From a virus, in IMG/VR virus record IMGVR_UViG_3300032084_000150, positions 1 through 20,179 of that record: a stretch of DNA of 20,179 nucleotides. One strand, 5' to 3'. A program made the translations under genes and the position numbers. How positions within the stretch are numbered: the first letter of the stretch is position 1; each line of letters starts with the position of its first letter. The notes under the pieces are model-generated. The model did not search any database. It was not told the origin of the DNA and saw nothing but the letters and a program-made list of their open reading frames with translations. Positions 2,965-20,046 of this stretch are shown here, piece by piece.

Positions 2965-5900
2965 ATGGCTTGGAATAGTAGAAACGGGTATCGTGACCGA
3001 TATCTAGGTGCCGCTAAAACACTAAGAAATAAGGCACTCGCTTGGGTTTATGCTCGCAGGGGCGAGGTTCCTGCAAACATCTATAGAGATGATCAAAGAG
3101 AAGGTTCATCCTTCTTCAACCCTGCCATTGTTCTCGATTATGATTTCGATGACATGGACGGGGATTTCCTTTTCAACAAAGCTCCTGGGGGAGACGATTA
3201 TTCCCTAGTTGTTCAAGGAGGAGAGTGGGTTAACGACGAAGAATACTGCATGTCAGGCTTCTCCACTTCCGCAACCTACGGAGTTATAAGAGGTAGATCT
3301 GATGTTATTACTCAGGTTGCTCAAAATAACAAGCAGTTTACAATTGATACTTGGATTAGGGCTCATGATCTTACGACCACTGGCCCTCCTAGAATATTCT
3401 CTATGGCCCCTTCCACTTCGGGAACTACAGGCCACGGGTCTTCTGCCCCCGACGCATTCTACCGTCGAAACTTAAGTTTGCTACAAGGTCCAAACAGCGC
3501 ACCTTTTGCAGGCGATGATTTACAAGCTAGATTTAGAGTTCTAGTAGGATCTACTGAGTCTGAGCTTAATGGTACATCCCCACCCCCTGATATTGCAGAG
3601 GGTGTATTAGTCCAGGATCAACTTCACCATGTAGCTTTAAGTGTTAAGGCAGTGGATGGAGATGGTCTTCCCGAGGTTACTATTGCCATGTATGTTGATG
3701 GTGATTTAGTTTCTGAGCAGATTATTGATGTAGATGGCGCAGAGTATGATGATGTTTTCTCTAACTGGGGAAGCACAGAACAGGGAAGCTATTTATTAAG
3801 TCTTTTCGATGAGGCTGCTGTAGTAGGAATTCCTGGTCAAAGAGCATGGAAAGGAACTATGTATCGCTGGAGATTCTGGGCTGGAGCCATGACCAGTCTC
3901 CTTATTAAACAATTATTTGATGCTGGCCCTAAAGGTTCTACTACATGTAACTGGGGTGGTGGAGGTGCTATCGGTGATCTAGATCCCGTTAGTGGTAACA
4001 TCTTTACACCTCCTATCGCTCAGGATGATACTGCTACAGTATACTTTGGAGATAGCAAGCCTATCTCTGTTCTTTCAAACGATCTTGTGTTCGGAGGTAA
4101 GAACTTTAGAAGAAACTCTCTTCAAGTTGTAACCCCTCCCACTTCTGGAACTGCTGTCCCAGATATTTACGGAAGGATTGAGTATAGTGCAATTGATTAC
4201 CCCGACACAACTCCAGGTAATCAAGACACCTTCACCTACAAGGTAAAGGATAACGCTAACCTTTGGACTACTGGCACTGTTTATGTAAACATTGCATCAG
4301 GTCCTCCTACAGGCGTGTTTACTCCTACTATACCTTTCCCAGGGGGAACTGCATACCCTGGTCGTCTACCTCCTTACGGGGCCAACCCAGCAGATGTTGA
4401 TTTCTCTGGAGGACCTTTAAGTGGCGCACTTGTTGATGCTTGTGGTATTGATTGGGTTATTCCATGGAAGTCCACAACAGGACCTAACAACGATTACTTT
4501 AAGATTGAAGAACTAGGTGATCAATATGCTGATGATATTCAGCTTAGTGGTTTCGCAATGCTATATCCTGATCTAGACTCAGAGGATTCAGGAGGTATTA
4601 AAATTACCGAACCAGGAACCTACGAAAACTTTGTTTCTTACAAGAAGATTCAGATTAGAGCTGATGATGTTATCCTTAAGAACTTCATTGTAGATCCTTG
4701 TTTAGGTGGAAGCCCTGCTGCAAAGGCAGCTATTTGGGCAAAGCAAAACTCTGTAGGTTATGATCCTAACTTCTGGCTTACTAACCTTAACGCACCTACT
4801 GATGTAAAAGGTCCTTGCCCTTTATATGGTATAACAGATAACCAAGGTGTTAAGAAGTATTATGAAAGACAGAACAACTCCATAATCTACGCTATAGATT
4901 GTAACAAGGTTCAAGGAACTGACACTTATGTTTCTGGAACAATTATAAGGGATGGTATGGTTACTTGGGGTTCAAGTAAAACGATCCTTCTTAGAAACAA
5001 CTCTATAGTTAAAAGATGTGATCTAAAAGAGGGAGGTGCTGACGCAATTGAATTCGGTGGTGACAATGTTTCCGCTACAGGTAACTGGATTCACCATCTT
5101 GGACCTCTTGCAAAGTCCCACTCTGATGGTATGCAAACCACTGGTAACTTCAATACCTATATCTTTGGAAACTTTATAGATATGCCATCTCCTGCTAAGG
5201 CACCTGTGCAACCCTATAAATCCAATGCAGCTTATATTGCTGGACCAACAAAAGCAAACATTGCCAATGTTGCAGTAATAGGTAACTGGATGAATGCTGG
5301 TAACAGTACGCTTTATATCAACACTGGTGATAAGTGGAAGAAAGCTTCTACTTTAGGTGTTCAGGCATCTGCTGATGGAACCTGTACATTCAGCCTTAAA
5401 GGAAACCAGTTCTCCGCAACACCAGAAGGTGCTAGACAGAACCTTGCTGGTGACGGTATTATCCTTGAGAAGTATGTTGTTAAGGGTTCTACTGAGGCTT
5501 ACTGGTGGGAAGTTCCCTCTGAATTTTACGGTAGAACTGATGCTTCTACTATAGTGCTGTCTGGTCCTGCTGGTGGTTGGGAAGATATTGTATATGATCC
5601 TACTGATCCTTTCGCTGGTCCTGACGGATACAAGTCTACCTACGGTGATCCTAATGTAGGCTGCTTATGTCCTAACCCTGAAACATACTTTGATCAAGGG
5701 GATTACACTGCATACTATAACAACCCTGGCGGGTGGGATCCAACACAAGGAGCAGATTGTGACTGGGTTAACAATGGTCAACCTTGTCACATCTTGTTCA
5801 GGCCCACTCTTGACGGACAACCTATGGTGTTCAGCGGTGTAAACTCTCAAGATATACCTTACGGTCAAAACGGTGTTTACAGGATTTCTGACCCAGCAAA

Positions 5901-6384
5901 GTGCCAGATTAATGGTGTGTACGATACCCCAGAAACCGCTACAAGCTGGTATCACCCTAAAGAGTTCTCAGGCGTTATCGTAGCTGATAATAGGTTTGGT
6001 GCGTACTTCCAGTACAACCCTGCTGGAATTGGTGATGCTCACCAATGCTGTGGAGACTTTGAATGGGATCAGCCAGCTAACGAAGCTGGAACTATGTCCT
6101 CAGTAATAATGTCTGGAAATATTTGGGACTATACTGGACAGCTTATGGGATCTGCCACAGGTGGAGGTTACACTCCCAACTACAACGATATTTATGGAGA
6201 TTTAAGCATCGTTAGAAAGTTCAATGACTGGTGTATTCCAGCCAGCGGAACCACTTACGGTCTTGCATCCTTCGATAGATTAAGATCTGATGGATGGTGT
6301 TCGGAATTCGCTAATGGAATGACCTTCGTAGAACCTTCTTACGACAGTTCTTGTGTACATTGTCCTGATCCATGGTGTCCATGA
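2965..6384 (+). CDS. Large tail fibre/tail spike protein: LamG-like, cadherin-like and beta-helix domains
   Basis: This 1139-residue protein starts at an ATG seven bases after GGAGG. After a short basic N-terminus (about 1-45), residues about 50-310 resemble a laminin-G/concanavalin-like lectin fold (FTIDTWIRA, LHHVALSV, MYVDGDLV). Residues about 350-450 look like a cadherin/Ig-like repeat: an N-terminal AQDD, then VLSND and DTFTYKVKD. Residues about 530-800 have the repeated short hydrophobic strands of a right-handed parallel beta-helix, including SHSDGMQ, common in pectate-lyase-like folds. The last ~280 residues are Cys-rich, ending in SSCVHCPDPWCP. This architecture fits a receptor-binding or glycan-degrading tail protein on the virion surface. 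It stands alone under late-type control, separate from the replication genes around it. Enzymatic activity is not shown. A general structural appendage protein is the main alternative. Confidence 0.75.
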   Translation: MAWNSRNGYRDRYLGAAKTLRNKALAWVYARRGEVPANIYRDDQREGSSFFNPAIVLDYDFDDMDGDFLFNKAPGGDDYSLVVQGGEWVNDEEYCMSGFSTSATYGVIRGRSDVITQVAQNNKQFTIDTWIRAHDLTTTGPPRIFSMAPSTSGTTGHGSSAPDAFYRRNLSLLQGPNSAPFAGDDLQARFRVLVGSTESELNGTSPPPDIAEGVLVQDQLHHVALSVKAVDGDGLPEVTIAMYVDGDLVSEQIIDVDGAEYDDVFSNWGSTEQGSYLLSLFDEAAVVGIPGQRAWKGTMYRWRFWAGAMTSLLIKQLFDAGPKGSTTCNWGGGGAIGDLDPVSGNIFTPPIAQDDTATVYFGDSKPISVLSNDLVFGGKNFRRNSLQVVTPPTSGTAVPDIYGRIEYSAIDYPDTTPGNQDTFTYKVKDNANLWTTGTVYVNIASGPPTGVFTPTIPFPGGTAYPGRLPPYGANPADVDFSGGPLSGALVDACGIDWVIPWKSTTGPNNDYFKIEELGDQYADDIQLSGFAMLYPDLDSEDSGGIKITEPGTYENFVSYKKIQIRADDVILKNFIVDPCLGGSPAAKAAIWAKQNSVGYDPNFWLTNLNAPTDVKGPCPLYGITDNQGVKKYYERQNNSIIYAIDCNKVQGTDTYVSGTIIRDGMVTWGSSKTILLRNNSIVKRCDLKEGGADAIEFGGDNVSATGNWIHHLGPLAKSHSDGMQTTGNFNTYIFGNFIDMPSPAKAPVQPYKSNAAYIAGPTKANIANVAVIGNWMNAGNSTLYINTGDKWKKASTLGVQASADGTCTFSLKGNQFSATPEGARQNLAGDGIILEKYVVKGSTEAYWWEVPSEFYGRTDASTIVLSGPAGGWEDIVYDPTDPFAGPDGYKSTYGDPNVGCLCPNPETYFDQGDYTAYYNNPGGWDPTQGADCDWVNNGQPCHILFRPTLDGQPMVFSGVNSQDIPYGQNGVYRISDPAKCQINGVYDTPETATSWYHPKEFSGVIVADNRFGAYFQYNPAGIGDAHQCCGDFEWDQPANEAGTMSSVIMSGNIWDYTGQLMGSATGGGYTPNYNDIYGDLSIVRKFNDWCIPASGTTYGLASFDRLRSDGWCSEFANGMTFVEPSYDSSCVHCPDPWCP

Positions 6385-6398: not shown

Positions 6399-6842
6399 AT
6401 GGCTATATACGAGTTCATTTGTCATGACTGTGAAGTAATATGGGAACGGGAAGCGCCTATGAGTAAAGCGCCTTCCCGTTCCCGTTGTCCTGAATGTAAG
6501 AAGCTATCCAACAGGCATTGGGGCGAGGTCCCTGTAATGTTCAATGGGAGCGACTACTATACTAACAAGCGTAAACAGCACAACTTAGTGTATAACGATA
6601 AGTCTAAAGCTAAAGAGGTTAAAGAGGATCTTTTAGATATTGCAAAGAAGCAGTCGGAACAGCAAGCTTCACCTTATAGACCTGTAGTATTAGATGAAAC
6701 CAAGCTTGAGCAAGGTCACGCTGAAGGTAAGATAAGGCGCAAAACAAAGGAAGAAAAGGATTTTGAGAAGAAACAGGGTGATGAGATCAGGTCGTCGCTC
6801 TATAATAACCATGCTGGTTACAGGAACCTAAGCAAACGATAA
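6399..6842 (+). CDS. FmdB-like zinc-ribbon protein
   Basis: The 147-residue product opens with a zinc ribbon of the FmdB type: a CHDC pair at residues 9-12 and a CPEC pair at about 31-34, within a YEFICHDC...RCPEC pattern. The remaining two thirds is Lys/Glu-rich and probably helical or disordered. FmdB-type ribbons occur in small phage and bacterial proteins of poorly known role, often regulatory or nucleic-acid linked. This is the first gene of the replication operon, eight bases before the helicase gene. There is no ribosome site before its ATG, which follows a TATAAT-type box, so a leaderless message is likely. A strong hairpin lies inside its coding sequence between the two cysteine pairs. 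Confidence 0.7.
   Translation: MAIYEFICHDCEVIWEREAPMSKAPSRSRCPECKKLSNRHWGEVPVMFNGSDYYTNKRKQHNLVYNDKSKAKEVKEDLLDIAKKQSEQQASPYRPVVLDETKLEQGHAEGKIRRKTKEEKDFEKKQGDEIRSSLYNNHAGYRNLSKR
6442..6483 (+). repeat. Strong hairpin within the zinc-ribbon gene
   Basis: GGGAACGGGAAG (6442-6453) pairs perfectly with 6472-6483. After a single bulged C at 6471, three more pairs follow (6454-6456 with 6468-6470). The 11-base loop (6457-6467) holds an in-frame ATG (6460-6462). Fifteen pairs, mostly G-C in the lower stem, make this unusually stable for coding sequence about 43 bases from the presumed mRNA 5' end. It could pause ribosomes or polymerase, or be a processing site. Confidence 0.7.
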
Positions 6843-8973: not shown

Positions 8974-9747
8974 ATGGCTATTGACCTAAACGCGCTTCGT
9001 CAGAAGCACCAACAACTTACCAACCCTAAAGCCGCTGGTGGAGATCAGGACTTCCTGAACAAGTTCTACCAAGTAAAGGAGGGCGAGGCTTATCTTCGTA
9101 TCCTTCCTGCCTCTGCTGATTCTGACAAGAACTTCTATGCAGAGACTAAGATCCACCGTGTCCCTCAGCCTGACGGTTCGGTGAAGAATGTACACTGCCG
9201 CAAGGTGCATGGAGAGAAGTGCCCTCTGTGCGATCTCTACTACGCCCTGTGGAAGACTGGTTCCAAGGAGGACGAGGATCTTGCTCGCCAGATCAAGCCC
9301 CGTGCTCGCTACTACCTGAACGCCTATGATCGTGAGAACGAGGAGGTCAAGATCTTCTCCATTGGCGTTATCCTGTTCCAGAAGATTGTCGAGACCATGA
9401 TGGATCCTGACTACGCTGATCTTTTCGAGCAGTCTGAGAACGGTATCCTTGATACCGAGATTGGTCACGACTTCAAGCTTCACATGAAGAAGGAAGGTCA
9501 ATGGCCCAAGTACGATCAATCCATGTTCCGTCCTAAGGCAACTCCGCTTGGCAGCAAGAAGATGATCTCAGAGGTGATGGAGTCTCTTCACGATATTCAC
9601 TCCCTTGTGAAGCTTGAAGAGTACGATGATGTGAAAGAGGCAGTTCTCAACCTGCGGCCTGAACTACAGCCACGGGAACGCACTCTTCAAGAAGATGATT
9701 CGGATGCGGGTTCCGATGATGATTTTACTAAGAGGCTATTGTCATGA
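8974..9747 (+). CDS. Single-stranded DNA-binding protein (gp32-like)
   Basis: The product of 257 residues should coat ssDNA during replication and recombination and interact with helicase, mediator and recombinase. It starts with a basic N-terminus (LRQKHQQL), which in gp32 mediates cooperative binding. A zinc-binding cluster follows: H74/C75/H79 with CPLC at 83-86, equivalent to the gp32 His/Cys zinc site. An OB-type region rich in aromatic residues is next, and it ends in an acidic tail with DDSDAGSDDD, the usual partner-binding tail. An AAGGAA ribosome site lies eight bases before the ATG. A CTATATAA stretch just upstream could be a weak promoter. The stop overlaps the lipoprotein start (ATGA). 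The gp32-type assignment is well supported by zinc motif, size and acidic tail. Confidence 0.85.
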   Translation: MAIDLNALRQKHQQLTNPKAAGGDQDFLNKFYQVKEGEAYLRILPASADSDKNFYAETKIHRVPQPDGSVKNVHCRKVHGEKCPLCDLYYALWKTGSKEDEDLARQIKPRARYYLNAYDRENEEVKIFSIGVILFQKIVETMMDPDYADLFEQSENGILDTEIGHDFKLHMKKEGQWPKYDQSMFRPKATPLGSKKMISEVMESLHDIHSLVKLEEYDDVKEAVLNLRPELQPRERTLQEDDSDAGSDDDFTKRLLS

Positions 9748-10301
9748 AACTAATCAATGTAATCGCAGCCTCAGTCCTAGCGTTCGGTGTTACATCCTGC
9801 GCTATGCTTGAGGAATTCCTAGGCGAGGGTACTGTCTTTACCACCGCTGATCAACTTGCCGAAGGTCAACAAGGTGCTGTCATCCCATGGGAGCAGCTTC
9901 CTGAGGAGATCAAGGCTAAAGTTCCTGAAGGCACAACTGTCGTAATGGCAGATAAGGAGCAACTTAAAGAAGATGCTGCTTATATTCCTGCTGCTCCTAG
10001 CGGTGAGGATCTCGGTGCCATGATCGACGCAGGGTTTGGTATTGCTAGTACCTTCCTCCCTGGCCTTGCTGCATGGGAAGGTGTTGTCACACTCTTCTCT
10101 CAGCGTAAGCGCAAGCATTATGTCAAGGCAGCCAAAGCTCTTGTACCTCACAAAGGAGACACCTCTGTTGATCTTGTGGGCACTGTAAAAGCTATTGGTG
10201 CTGGTCTTGGCCTATCACACTCATCTGAGGCATCTAAGATTGCTGCTGAAGATGATTCTGAGTACGAGTACGAAGAAGTACCCGAAGAACCTGTTGCATG
10301 A
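9744..10301 (+). CDS. Phage-encoded lipoprotein, unknown function
   Basis: The 185-residue product begins with a classic lipoprotein signal: a basic MK start, a hydrophobic stretch, and a lipobox VTSC with Cys19 as the lipidation site. The mature protein has an acidic stretch, a hydrophobic and Gly-rich segment around residues 93-115 that could contact or enter a membrane, a basic RKRKHY patch, another Gly-rich stretch, and a very acidic C-terminus. It is translationally coupled to the SSB gene by an ATGA overlap, an odd place for an envelope protein. Phage lipoproteins are known to block superinfection (T5 Llp) or serve as outer-membrane spanins, but I recognise neither here and the length is high for a spanin. 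The lipoprotein nature is visible; the role is open. Confidence 0.75.
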   Translation: MKLINVIAASVLAFGVTSCAMLEEFLGEGTVFTTADQLAEGQQGAVIPWEQLPEEIKAKVPEGTTVVMADKEQLKEDAAYIPAAPSGEDLGAMIDAGFGIASTFLPGLAAWEGVVTLFSQRKRKHYVKAAKALVPHKGDTSVDLVGTVKAIGAGLGLSHSSEASKIAAEDDSEYEYEEVPEEPVA

Positions 10302-10384
10302 TGTTGATGCTGTCTGAGCCAATCCCGACGAAGGAGGTGATCCTACTAGAGTGTTCTAGGGGATCCTGTCGGGCAGCGAAGTAG
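10298..10384 (+). CDS. Possible 28-residue ORF overlapping the structured RNA region
   Basis: An ATG overlapping the lipoprotein stop opens 28 codons with two Cys in an ECSRGSC stretch and ends in TAG at 10382-10384. There is no convincing ribosome site, but the stop-start overlap could couple it to the lipoprotein gene. It covers most of the region that also folds into nested helices, so coding and structured-RNA readings compete. The length is short enough to arise by chance. Confidence 0.3.
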   Translation: MMLMLSEPIPTKEVILLECSRGSCRAAK

Positions 10385-10389
10385 ACAGT
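10309..10389 (+). ncRNA. Candidate structured RNA with a 13-base perfect complement to the 16S rRNA 3' end
   Basis: Four nested helices can form: 10310-10315 with 10383-10388, CCCGAC (10324-10329) with GTCGGG (10368-10373), GATCC (10339-10343) with GGATC (10361-10365), and CTAGA (10346-10350) with TCTAG (10355-10359), closed by a GTGT loop. The strand 10331-10343 reads AAGGAGGTGATCC, the exact complement of the 16S 3' terminus (GGATCACCTCCTT). Its AAGGAGGT part lies unpaired in an internal loop. No start codon suited to this site follows. Possible roles are binding of 30S subunits or control of downstream translation. A short ORF (10298-10384) is the competing explanation. Confidence 0.45.
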
Positions 10390-10403
10390 CTAGAAACTCG
10401 AAA

Positions 10404-10424
10404 AAAGCGTTAGACGGGCGCTTT
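10404..10424 (-). terminator. Possible leftward intrinsic terminator
   Basis: AAAGCG and CGCTTT form a 6-bp stem with a 9-base loop. Read on the minus strand, the hairpin is followed by TTT and part of a longer T run, as in an intrinsic terminator. On the plus strand it is followed by A residues and would not terminate. No minus-strand gene nearby needs it, so this may be chance. Confidence 0.2.
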
Positions 10425-10441
10425 AAAAAACTCAGACTTGC

Positions 10442-10450
10442 ACTATAATA
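10442..10450 (+). promoter_or_regulatory. ACTATAATA promoter-like motif for the glycan cassette
   Basis: A perfect TATAAT (10444-10449) lies in the shared ACTATAATA motif. The expected start of transcription is near 10455, so the message would begin at or within the GAAA hairpin. There is no clear -35 box at 16-18 bases. Confidence 0.55.
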
Positions 10451-10475
10451 GAGAGGTGGTGAAAGCCACCTCTCT
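10450..10475 (+). promoter_or_regulatory. 5' mRNA hairpin with GAAA tetraloop
   Basis: AGAGAGGTGG (10450-10459) pairs with 10466-10475. A U-G pair (10460, 10465) closes a GAAA loop, a stable GNRA tetraloop. It falls at the expected 5' end of the glycan cassette message, and its purine arm is the only Shine-Dalgarno-like sequence before the ATG at 10483. It may protect the mRNA end or modulate initiation. Confidence 0.6.
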
Positions 10476-10482
10476 TCTTATT

Positions 10483-11652
10483 ATGAGTAAACTAAAGATA
10501 CTTGTTGTTCCCGCTAATGATGGCGGATGTGCGTATTATAGAGCTTGGAGCCCTTTCCAAAAGCTTCAACAAAAGTTCCCTGAAGAGGTAGAGGTTAAGT
10601 TCAACAAGAACCCTCTAGGTATTGACGAGAAGACTGGTCAATGGCAACCAGACTGGGAGTACGAGGATATGAAGTGGGCCGACATCGTGTTCACTCAGAA
10701 CCTTAGTAACTTCGGTGGACCTTACACTGCTCGTATCGTAGGTAAGGCCAAAGAGTTTGGTAAGATCATGCATTACGATACTGACGATCTTCTCACAGAA
10801 GTTTACGAGGGACACAGACTACACGGTGTTTACAAAGATAAAGGTCTTAGTGATATAACTAAGTTCATCTATAATAACTCCGATATTGTATCAGTAACTC
10901 AGCGTAAGTTCGCAGAGAGAGTTCTTCCTTTCTGCGGTCCTAACACTACGCTAACAGTTATAAAGAATGCTATCGACTATGACCTACCTTGCTGGAACAT
11001 GCCCAGAGTTGTTCCTAAGAACTTATGTAGAGTAGGCTGGGTAGGGGGAATCCACCATGAGCAGGACCTTAAGCAGTTCGTAGGTGTTCCTGCTCTCGTT
11101 AATCAAAAGGCAGGAAGAGAGCGAGTTCACTGGAACTTCTTCGGTAGACCTCCAGTCAACCCTGAGACAGGTAAGGACTGGCAGCAGGATGTATGGGACA
11201 ACTACGAGCGTATGCTGTTCGGCTTCATGAAGGGCAGACGCAATAGCACAGTTCACCCAGCACAAGGACCTGATAGGTACGGACAGTTCTACACTCACAT
11301 GGATCTGGCTATCGCTCCTCTTGAGTTCAACAACTTCAATGATAGTAAGAGTGAGATCAAAGTAGCTGAGTGCGGTAGGTATGCGATTCCTCTTGTAGCT
11401 ACAAACTGTGGATGCTATGATGAGACTATCATCAACGGTGAGACAGGATATCTTATTGATCCATCTAATCCTAAGTCTGAGTGGGTTAGGGTTATGAGTA
11501 AGATGATCAAGGATAAGAAAGGTAGAGAGGAAATGGGTAATAACCTCAAGCAGGTTACTGACGAGTTCTTTGATATCAACAAAGTTGTCAAGTTTAGGCT
11601 AGACCTTTACAGACAGATACTAAATCTTGAGGAGATTAAGAATGAAAATTAA
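10483..11652 (+). CDS. Glycosyltransferase, GT4-like (GT-B fold)
   Basis: The 389-residue product resembles GT-B glycosyltransferases of the family 4 type. It opens with a KLKILVVPAND strand and a YYRAWSPF segment, and has a WADIVFTQN segment ending the N-terminal Rossmann half. The C-terminal half has RVGWVGG, then LAIAPLEFNNFNDSKSEIKVAE, which corresponds to the nucleotide-sugar-binding E-x7-E region, and NGETGYLID. I chose the ATG at 10483; a longer frame from a TTG at 10438 runs through the promoter and hairpin and is not plausible. There is no good ribosome site. It heads the glycan cassette and overlaps the next transferase gene. Donor and acceptor sugars are unknown. It may act on a virion glycan, on glycosylated DNA bases or on a host surface polymer. 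Confidence 0.8.
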   Translation: MSKLKILVVPANDGGCAYYRAWSPFQKLQQKFPEEVEVKFNKNPLGIDEKTGQWQPDWEYEDMKWADIVFTQNLSNFGGPYTARIVGKAKEFGKIMHYDTDDLLTEVYEGHRLHGVYKDKGLSDITKFIYNNSDIVSVTQRKFAERVLPFCGPNTTLTVIKNAIDYDLPCWNMPRVVPKNLCRVGWVGGIHHEQDLKQFVGVPALVNQKAGRERVHWNFFGRPPVNPETGKDWQQDVWDNYERMLFGFMKGRRNSTVHPAQGPDRYGQFYTHMDLAIAPLEFNNFNDSKSEIKVAECGRYAIPLVATNCGCYDETIINGETGYLIDPSNPKSEWVRVMSKMIKDKKGREEMGNNLKQVTDEFFDINKVVKFRLDLYRQILNLEEIKNEN

Positions 11653-19617: not shown

Positions 19618-19694
19618 CCGTCCAGGGTGGCTGGTAGTCACAGAGCATCTTATAAGTGTTTATGAGTAGCGTTCGATTCGCTATGGGCGGACCA
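19618..19694 (+). tRNA. tRNA, probably Ile with anticodon TAT (noncanonical core)
   Basis: The 77-base element has a 7-bp acceptor stem (19618-19624 with 19684-19690, one G-U), a discriminator A and an encoded CCA. The T arm is textbook, TAGCG/CGCTA with loop TTCGATT (19667-19683). The D stem is GTGG/TCAC with GG in the loop, and the anticodon loop is CTTATAA (19649-19655), giving TAT, which would read AUA. Oddities: G replaces U at position 8, C replaces A at 14, and the anticodon stem has several G-U pairs. The 3' part is overlapped by the convergent HNH gene. AUA is frequent in the A/T-rich cassette, which would make such a tRNA useful. Because of the core changes it may be degenerate. Confidence 0.65.
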
Positions 19695-20046
19695 ATCAAT
19701 TGTCAACTCACCAAAATGTAAAGCTCGATGACAGTTAGAGCATAGCATAACGCACTTATCTAACTCTTCCTGTATCACTTCCCATTTTCTTGAATGGTTT
19801 CCTGATATGTTAAAGTCCTTTTTAGTAGGATCTAAATGATGGAAATCTAACGCAGATGGGTATTTGTCGAAACCACAGCTATAACACTTAGCTCCTTTAT
19901 ATTCGATTGCTCGTTGCTTTACTTTAGTTCTCCTCTTGTTTACATGGCAGGAATTACAAGTATCCTTGGTATGTCCTGCTTTGCGAGAGTAGACGAATTG
20001 ACGATCACATAATTTACAAGTATTCATTTTAGTAAGAGCATCTTAT
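19642..20046 (+). repeat. 12-bp direct repeat flanking the HNH gene
   Basis: AGAGCATCTTAT occurs at 19642-19653, inside the tRNA anticodon arm, and again at 20035-20046, just upstream of the HNH start. The two copies bracket the HNH coding region almost exactly. The second copy continues so that 20035-20041 pairs with 20045-20051, a perfect stem that the tRNA copy lacks. Confidence 0.65.
19650..20027 (-). CDS. HNH homing-type endonuclease
   Basis: The 125-residue product on the minus strand has an N-terminal zinc pair set (C4, C7, C24, C27), a second set formed by CYSC and CSNC, and the HNH core LDFHHLDP followed by CVMLCSNCHRALH. This is the layout of free-standing phage HNH endonucleases, which nick or cut DNA to spread their own gene. 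It is the only minus-strand gene in the window and converges on the tRNA. Its last 15 or so codons and the stop lie within the tRNA gene, so its tail (beginning about WSAHSES) is encoded by tRNA complement. No strong ribosome site precedes the ATG. It looks like a recent insertion next to a tRNA. Confidence 0.85.
   Translation of the reverse strand: MNTCKLCDRQFVYSRKAGHTKDTCNSCHVNKRRTKVKQRAIEYKGAKCYSCGFDKYPSALDFHHLDPTKKDFNISGNHSRKWEVIQEELDKCVMLCSNCHRALHFGELTIDWSAHSESNATHKHL

Follow-up and report, generated by a model that had tools for sequence, protein, structure and literature searches.

Genomic context of the element

The window, that is the whole stretch of DNA analysed here, is an IMG/VR virus record of 20,179 bases. 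Pfam searches of the window identify a gp32-type ssDNA-binding protein, a DnaB-type helicase, a RecA-type protein, a ribonucleotide reductase and a glycosyltransferase. The gp32 matches in isolated phages are at most 33% identical among the matches listed, and most of the matching records are T4-like cyanophages. A search for psbA as a marker of a cyanobacterial host found none. The source is an uncultured T4-like phage, and between two of its genes lies a real, strongly conserved and unclassified non-coding element of one clade. The features of this region are as follows.

8974–9747, + strand: gene of a gp32-like ssDNA-binding protein (PF08804, E 1.8e-17), upstream of the element and in the same apparent operon as the next gene
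9744–10301, + strand: lipoprotein-like gene (ORF and relatives), overlapping the gp32 gene and directly upstream of the element
10324–10432 (approx.), + strand: conserved non-coding core of about 105–110 nt, putative 3' UTR of the gp32-lipoprotein operon
10444–10449, + strand: TATAAT, the -10-like box of the next transcription unit
10450–10475, + strand: terminator-like hairpin, then TTCTTATT; in one relative (L009) the sequence is altered and the pairing kept
10483–11652, + strand: glycosyltransferase gene (PF00534 and PF13692) without a Shine-Dalgarno (SD) sequence, downstream of the element

The element is thus placed between the stop codon of the lipoprotein-like gene (10301), for which a Pfam search gave no match, and the TATAAT box, the terminator-like hairpin and the glycosyltransferase start. 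A promoter scan just upstream of the element found none. Provided that transcription runs to the terminator, the element would constitute the 3' UTR of the gp32-lipoprotein unit. In two relatives (L009 and L010) the downstream gene is exchanged for a different one while the element is intact, which ties it to the upstream operon. For the same reason the link to a glycan cassette, proposed in a preliminary description of this DNA, is weak.

Some further observations concern the surroundings. From 10443 to 10485 the -10 box overlaps the terminator-like hairpin, after which come a T-rich sequence and then the ATG, and this layout recurs in most relatives. At the genes starting at 6399, 13069 and 15252 a TATAAT/TATTAT-like box ends ~6 nt before the ATG and an SD is lacking, resembling leaderless messages. 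Likewise CTATAATAAACCATG precedes the glycosyltransferase gene of L028, as in leaderless messages. The window and L002 are near-identical through gp32, lipoprotein and element, but beyond the first bases of the glycosyltransferase gene (10483–11652) identity drops to only 77.6%, a sharp mosaic boundary. Elsewhere in the window, the stretch 2965–6384 between the ribonucleotide reductase and replication genes encodes a protein of 1139 aa that contains a Big_9 domain of the bacterial Ig type. At 19618–20027 a minus-strand ORF that looks HNH endonuclease-like (CxxC and DFHHLDP motifs, by eye) overlaps a tRNA-Ile (TAT) at its end.

A complement of the 16S rRNA tail in a conserved non-coding stretch

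The element contains the 13-mer AAGGAGGTGATCC, which is complementary to GGAUCACCUCCUU at 13/13 bases. E. coli 16S rRNA has 13 free 3'-end bases, GAUCACCUCCUUA (PMC5427494). The site pairs with 12 of these 13 and with the G preceding them. The full anti-SD match described earlier for 10331–10343 is therefore confirmed. It is the sole exact copy in the window, where the next best match has 2 mismatches, and a given 13-mer is indeed expected far less than once in 20 kb (~0.0006, both strands). The further claim that no proper start codon follows stands for normal spacing, as a start codon opening a gene about 5–9 nt after GGAGG is absent; it does not take account of a GTG-TTC-TAG located 13 nt past GGAGG. 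The conserved sequences are the following.

10331–10343, + strand: AAGGAGGTGATCC, complementary to the free 16S rRNA 3' tail, invariant in all relatives bearing the element
10331–10359, + strand: invariant block 1, 29 nt, the 13-mer plus TACTAGAGTGTTCTAG
10351–10359, + strand: GTG-TTC-TAG, a possible two-codon minigene, invariant
10390–10429, + strand: invariant block 2, 40 nt, CTAGAAACTCGAAAAAAGCGTTAGACGGGCGCTTTAAAAA

Relatives were gathered by a lipoprotein search, which yielded 54 loci; the comparisons rest on six distinct sequences of one clade. The exact 13-mer occurs at the same place in L002–L007 and L009–L011, plus overlapping loci from those contigs. A loss of the 16S match in relatives, named beforehand as an outcome to look for, was not seen in any relative carrying the element. 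Core identity is 93.6–100% among the six distinct sequences, as compared to 36–95% at four-fold degenerate sites of the gp32, lipoprotein and glycosyltransferase genes (36–57% against L011, the most distant one). The conservation is well above chance and, judged from the alignments, is that of a non-protein-coding stretch under purifying selection.

Two coding readings have to be weighed against this. The rival view offered in the preliminary description, a 28-codon ORF whose frame reads K-E-V-I across the site, fares badly. All versions do keep this frame open over the site, and SETIPTKEVILLECSRG is similar in several of them, but the start is absent in L011, starts and carboxyl ends differ elsewhere after indels, an SD is lacking, block 1 has no synonymous change and stops fall within block 2. 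A conserved start and frame with synonymous-biased change, as expected of a small gene, is not found for the ORF over the site, and we consider it extremely improbable that a short protein is encoded here. The other coding reading takes GTG-TTC-TAG as a two-codon minigene which, driven by the strong SD, would stall or recycle ribosomes. GTGTTCTAG is invariant, as such a minigene would demand. However, the spacing of 13 nt from GGAGG compares to 6–7 nt at the well-marked SDs of this phage, the start sits inside a hairpin loop, and the 40-nt block is left unexplained. A minigene appears very improbable.

Regarding the distribution of the element, a lipoprotein tree places all element bearers on one side of a single branch (support 94/88; 0/500 shuffles as low), so one gain followed by vertical descent suffices. 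In element-free loci with sequence available beyond the lipoprotein gene, the stop codon is followed by promoter and hairpin or by a further ORF in the slot. In L020, L039 and L045–L048 the slot carries a small ORF of roughly 75–85 codons, so that this position after the lipoprotein gene resembles a site for variable cargo. The contig of L008 ends precisely at the element's left boundary (...GACAATC), which may reflect an assembly break at the hairpin.

Model and pattern searches of 20 related records, IMG/VR and 85k genomes gave no copy outside the clade, and no second copy within the same genomes reached a convincing score. A scan of the 85k genomes with the pattern of block 1 gave none; matches there to part of block 2 were rejected as unrelated, mostly terminators or coding sequence. 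A DNA similarity search against annotated phages and plasmids returned short chance matches only. The Rfam scan of the window had 0 matches at gathering score (best sub-threshold 19.3 bits, 56 needed). The other viral matches to the 13-mer, L120 apart, are ordinary SDs or coding (L114 reads as coding) and do not represent further copies of the element. A vector artefact was considered in view of the BioBrick-like TACTAGAG and rejected because of diverged flanks in contigs from several metagenomes.

Predicted structure and strand

The four nested perfect helices of 22 bp noted earlier were found as described (6+6+5+5). The predicted fold has a z-score of about -2.5 compared to dinucleotide shuffles. 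Its parts are listed below, together with a fifth hairpin and an alternative pairing partner.

10310–10315, + strand: P1 5' strand, pairs with the P1 3' strand 10383–10388; in L011 degraded, mostly pairable
10324–10329, + strand: P2 5' strand CCCGAC, pairs with 10368–10373; L004, L005 and L007 each have a single C x A mismatch
10368–10373, + strand: P2 3' strand GTCGGG
10339–10343, + strand: P3 5' strand GATCC, within the 13-mer, pairs with 10361–10365
10361–10365, + strand: P3 3' strand GGATC
10346–10359, + strand: P4 hairpin CTAGA-GTGT-TCTAG (10346–10350/10355–10359); its 3' half may alternatively pair with 10390–10399
10390–10399, + strand: CTAGAAACTC, alternative-fold partner of 10349–10359 (10 bp, one bulged G)
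10404–10424, + strand: P5 hairpin AAAGCGTT-AGACG-GGCGCTTT, with no U-run after it on the + strand

The site had been assigned to an internal loop. This is correct for AAGGAGGT only, while the remaining GATCC is paired with GGATC (10361–10365). Opening all 13 bases is predicted to require ~8–11 kcal/mol. Regarding the covariation check in relatives that had been proposed, pair counting on the alignment reveals 97% pairing and 0 pairs changed on both sides among 6 sequences with little variation, and RNAalifold on the same six indicates that covariation is absent. The helices as predicted are compatible with the alignment, but the structure is not proven, since double compensatory changes are lacking and the variation is too small for a test. 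A preQ1-like pseudoknot of P5 with the A-rich tail was discarded, since conservation of the tail pairing is lacking and Rfam has no match.

GAGTgTTCTAG (10349–10359) and CTAGAAACTC belong to different invariant blocks, and both are invariant and complementary in 6/6 sequences; complementarity of this extent between the two blocks was reached by 60/5000 shuffles. With the site free, the alternative fold is predicted to be ~4–10 kcal/mol weaker than the main fold. If the 13-mer is held single-stranded, it becomes the best fold in 2/6 sequences only (L005 and L007). A conformational switch of P4 with CTAGAAACTC is suggestive only on the basis of these models.

Concerning the strand, G-U pairs are valid on the + strand only in 21 cells (P1, inner pair of P2, P5) and on the minus strand only in 4, which favours the + strand. 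Another reading would be an element acting at the DNA level (regulator of a promoter, site of replication or of recombination), or else an RNA from the minus strand that mimics the 16S tail. The element does precede the TATAAT box belonging to the next unit. Transcribed from the minus strand, it would present a hairpin followed by GGAUCACCUCCUU and so mimic the 16S end; the minus strand folds as well (z -2.05), and there the C x A mismatches of L004, L005 and L007 would turn into G-U pairs. But the G-U pairs elsewhere speak for the + strand, a minus transcript would have to cross a terminator-like hairpin with T-run (the reverse of P5) before reaching the element, and a convincing minus promoter was not found. 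Hence both variants are very unlikely.

Candidate functions

The best explanation we can offer, with a probability of roughly 0.38, is a non-initiating + strand RNA element that would dock 30S subunits and act like a STAB-SD stabiliser within the 3' UTR of the gp32-lipoprotein operon; a switch of conformation may be part of this. STAB-SD is the 5' mRNA stabiliser of cry3A from Bacillus thuringiensis, an SD-like sequence which pairs with the 16S 3' end without initiation, whereby the bound 30S subunit blocks decay by RNase J (PMC4113751). A STAB-SD thereby holds off a 5'-3' exoribonuclease and prolongs the half-life of the RNA. The phage element resembles it by matching the 16S 3' end at 13/13 bases with no start at normal spacing. 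It differs by its position, as STAB-SD acts near the 5' end and the phage element, barring processing of the RNA, is situated in a 3' UTR. Moreover, its match is embedded in a conserved predicted structure with a second invariant block, and a stabilising role would be by analogy.

According to this explanation, + strand transcription would yield the element as 3' UTR of the gp32-lipoprotein operon RNA, and the invariant 13-mer would dock the 30S subunit via the full anti-SD tail with translation not being started. The docked subunit would displace P2 and P3. Either the subunit itself or the structure exposed thereby may then serve to protect the mRNA or to regulate it; the target might also be an RNA derived from the 3' UTR, with its end at the terminator. 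The second invariant block must serve a separate purpose, which may be the alternative pairing or the binding of a protein. Transcription, 30S binding, lack of initiation and a stabilising role are all inferred.

The predicted hybrid with the 16S tail (-23.1 kcal/mol) yields far more than the predicted opening cost of 8–11 kcal/mol, so docking seems energetically plausible in these calculations. Lack of initiation is suggested by the comparison with ordinary extended SD sites: several copies of the same 13-mer in other viral contigs are such ribosome sites with an ATG or GTG 1–4 nt later, whereas the element has no normally spaced start and its non-coding conservation is far longer. Against docking, 5/13 bases sit in a helix, docking needs just a short SD, the 40-nt invariant block is not explained by it, and the comparison comprises only six distinct sequences from one clade with 0 double compensatory changes. 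A phage-encoded bS21, which might have served as partner, was not found in 19 fragments.

A different reading is an RNA with structure, either a cis element or an sRNA derived from the 3' UTR, whose conserved sequence would bind a protein or another RNA, with the anti-SD match being incidental or secondary. Examples are control of RNA processing, antitermination at the downstream hairpin or an sRNA ending there. Most of the conservation, including this block, lies outside the 13-mer, the element is directly upstream of the terminator-like hairpin, and there are precedents in 3'-UTR RNA elements (PMC2864571) and in phage sRNAs. GGAGGTG is also able to pair with the 3' arm of the terminator (-11.8 kcal/mol). 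This pairing is, however, weaker than the terminator itself (about -19), for which reason attenuation by this route was dismissed, and it is altered in L009. An invariant 13-mer exactly covering the 16S tail would moreover be a large coincidence, and we regard this reading as somewhat unlikely.

Known structured RNAs offer partial parallels. The wcaG and manA motifs of cyanophages lie close to genes for sugars or exopolysaccharides in marine T4-like phages (PMC2864571), in contrast to the phage element, whose position is tied to the upstream operon. Rfam hits around the element up to E 10 are sub-threshold chance ones, with neither wcaG nor manA among them. The L17 downstream element is a structured domain in a 3' UTR, which is unusual in bacteria (PMC2864571). 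It shares this location with the phage element, but the two are unrelated by the Rfam scan and the gene context differs.

Two further readings start from ribosome binding. In the first one, the 30S subunit would break P2/P3, the 3' half of P4 would re-pair with CTAGAAACTC (10 bp) and the fate of the RNA would change. The invariant complementary partners in 6/6 sequences, the 60/5000 shuffles and the alternative fold of L005 and L007 argue for such a switch; the preference for the alternative in 2/6 only, its deficit of ~4–10 kcal/mol with the site free and the missing covariation argue against it. A switch of this kind is distinctly unlikely on balance. The extended version, in which a 30S subunit captured by its whole anti-SD tail senses free ribosomes and the re-folding of P4 sets the fate of the gp32 operon message, is rather unlikely too. 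The earlier suggestion of a ribosome-sensing element is thus retained as a possibility, weakened by the 0 double compensatory changes and by the confinement of the alternative fold to 2/6 sequences.

In the second one, the RNA would be a decoy that titrates 30S subunits or anti-SD tails and thereby favours leaderless phage messages. The full-tail complement and the leaderless appearance of the genes at 6399, 13069 and 15252 fit this idea. A decoy would, however, need RNA amounts near those of ribosomes, and the element has one copy per genome. Many genes of the window, roughly half of the phage's own, have SD matches of at least 5 nt; titration in favour of phage messages, as had been suggested before, is hence unlikely because many phage genes use SD sequences themselves, and a decoy is highly unlikely overall. 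Among the papers searched, none describes an RNA by which a phage acts as anti-SD decoy or ribosome sponge.

Taken together, a conserved non-coding element with a complete anti-SD complement is supported by the sequence comparison, and at about 110 nt the RNA is compact enough for 30S binding assays in vitro. Should ribosomes not be its target, it would nonetheless be a conserved and unclassified element of phages. A conserved non-coding anti-SD complement with no properly placed start suggests that the phage uses the mRNA-docking tail of the ribosome beyond initiation. If true, STAB-SD-like docking would extend to phages and to 3' UTRs.
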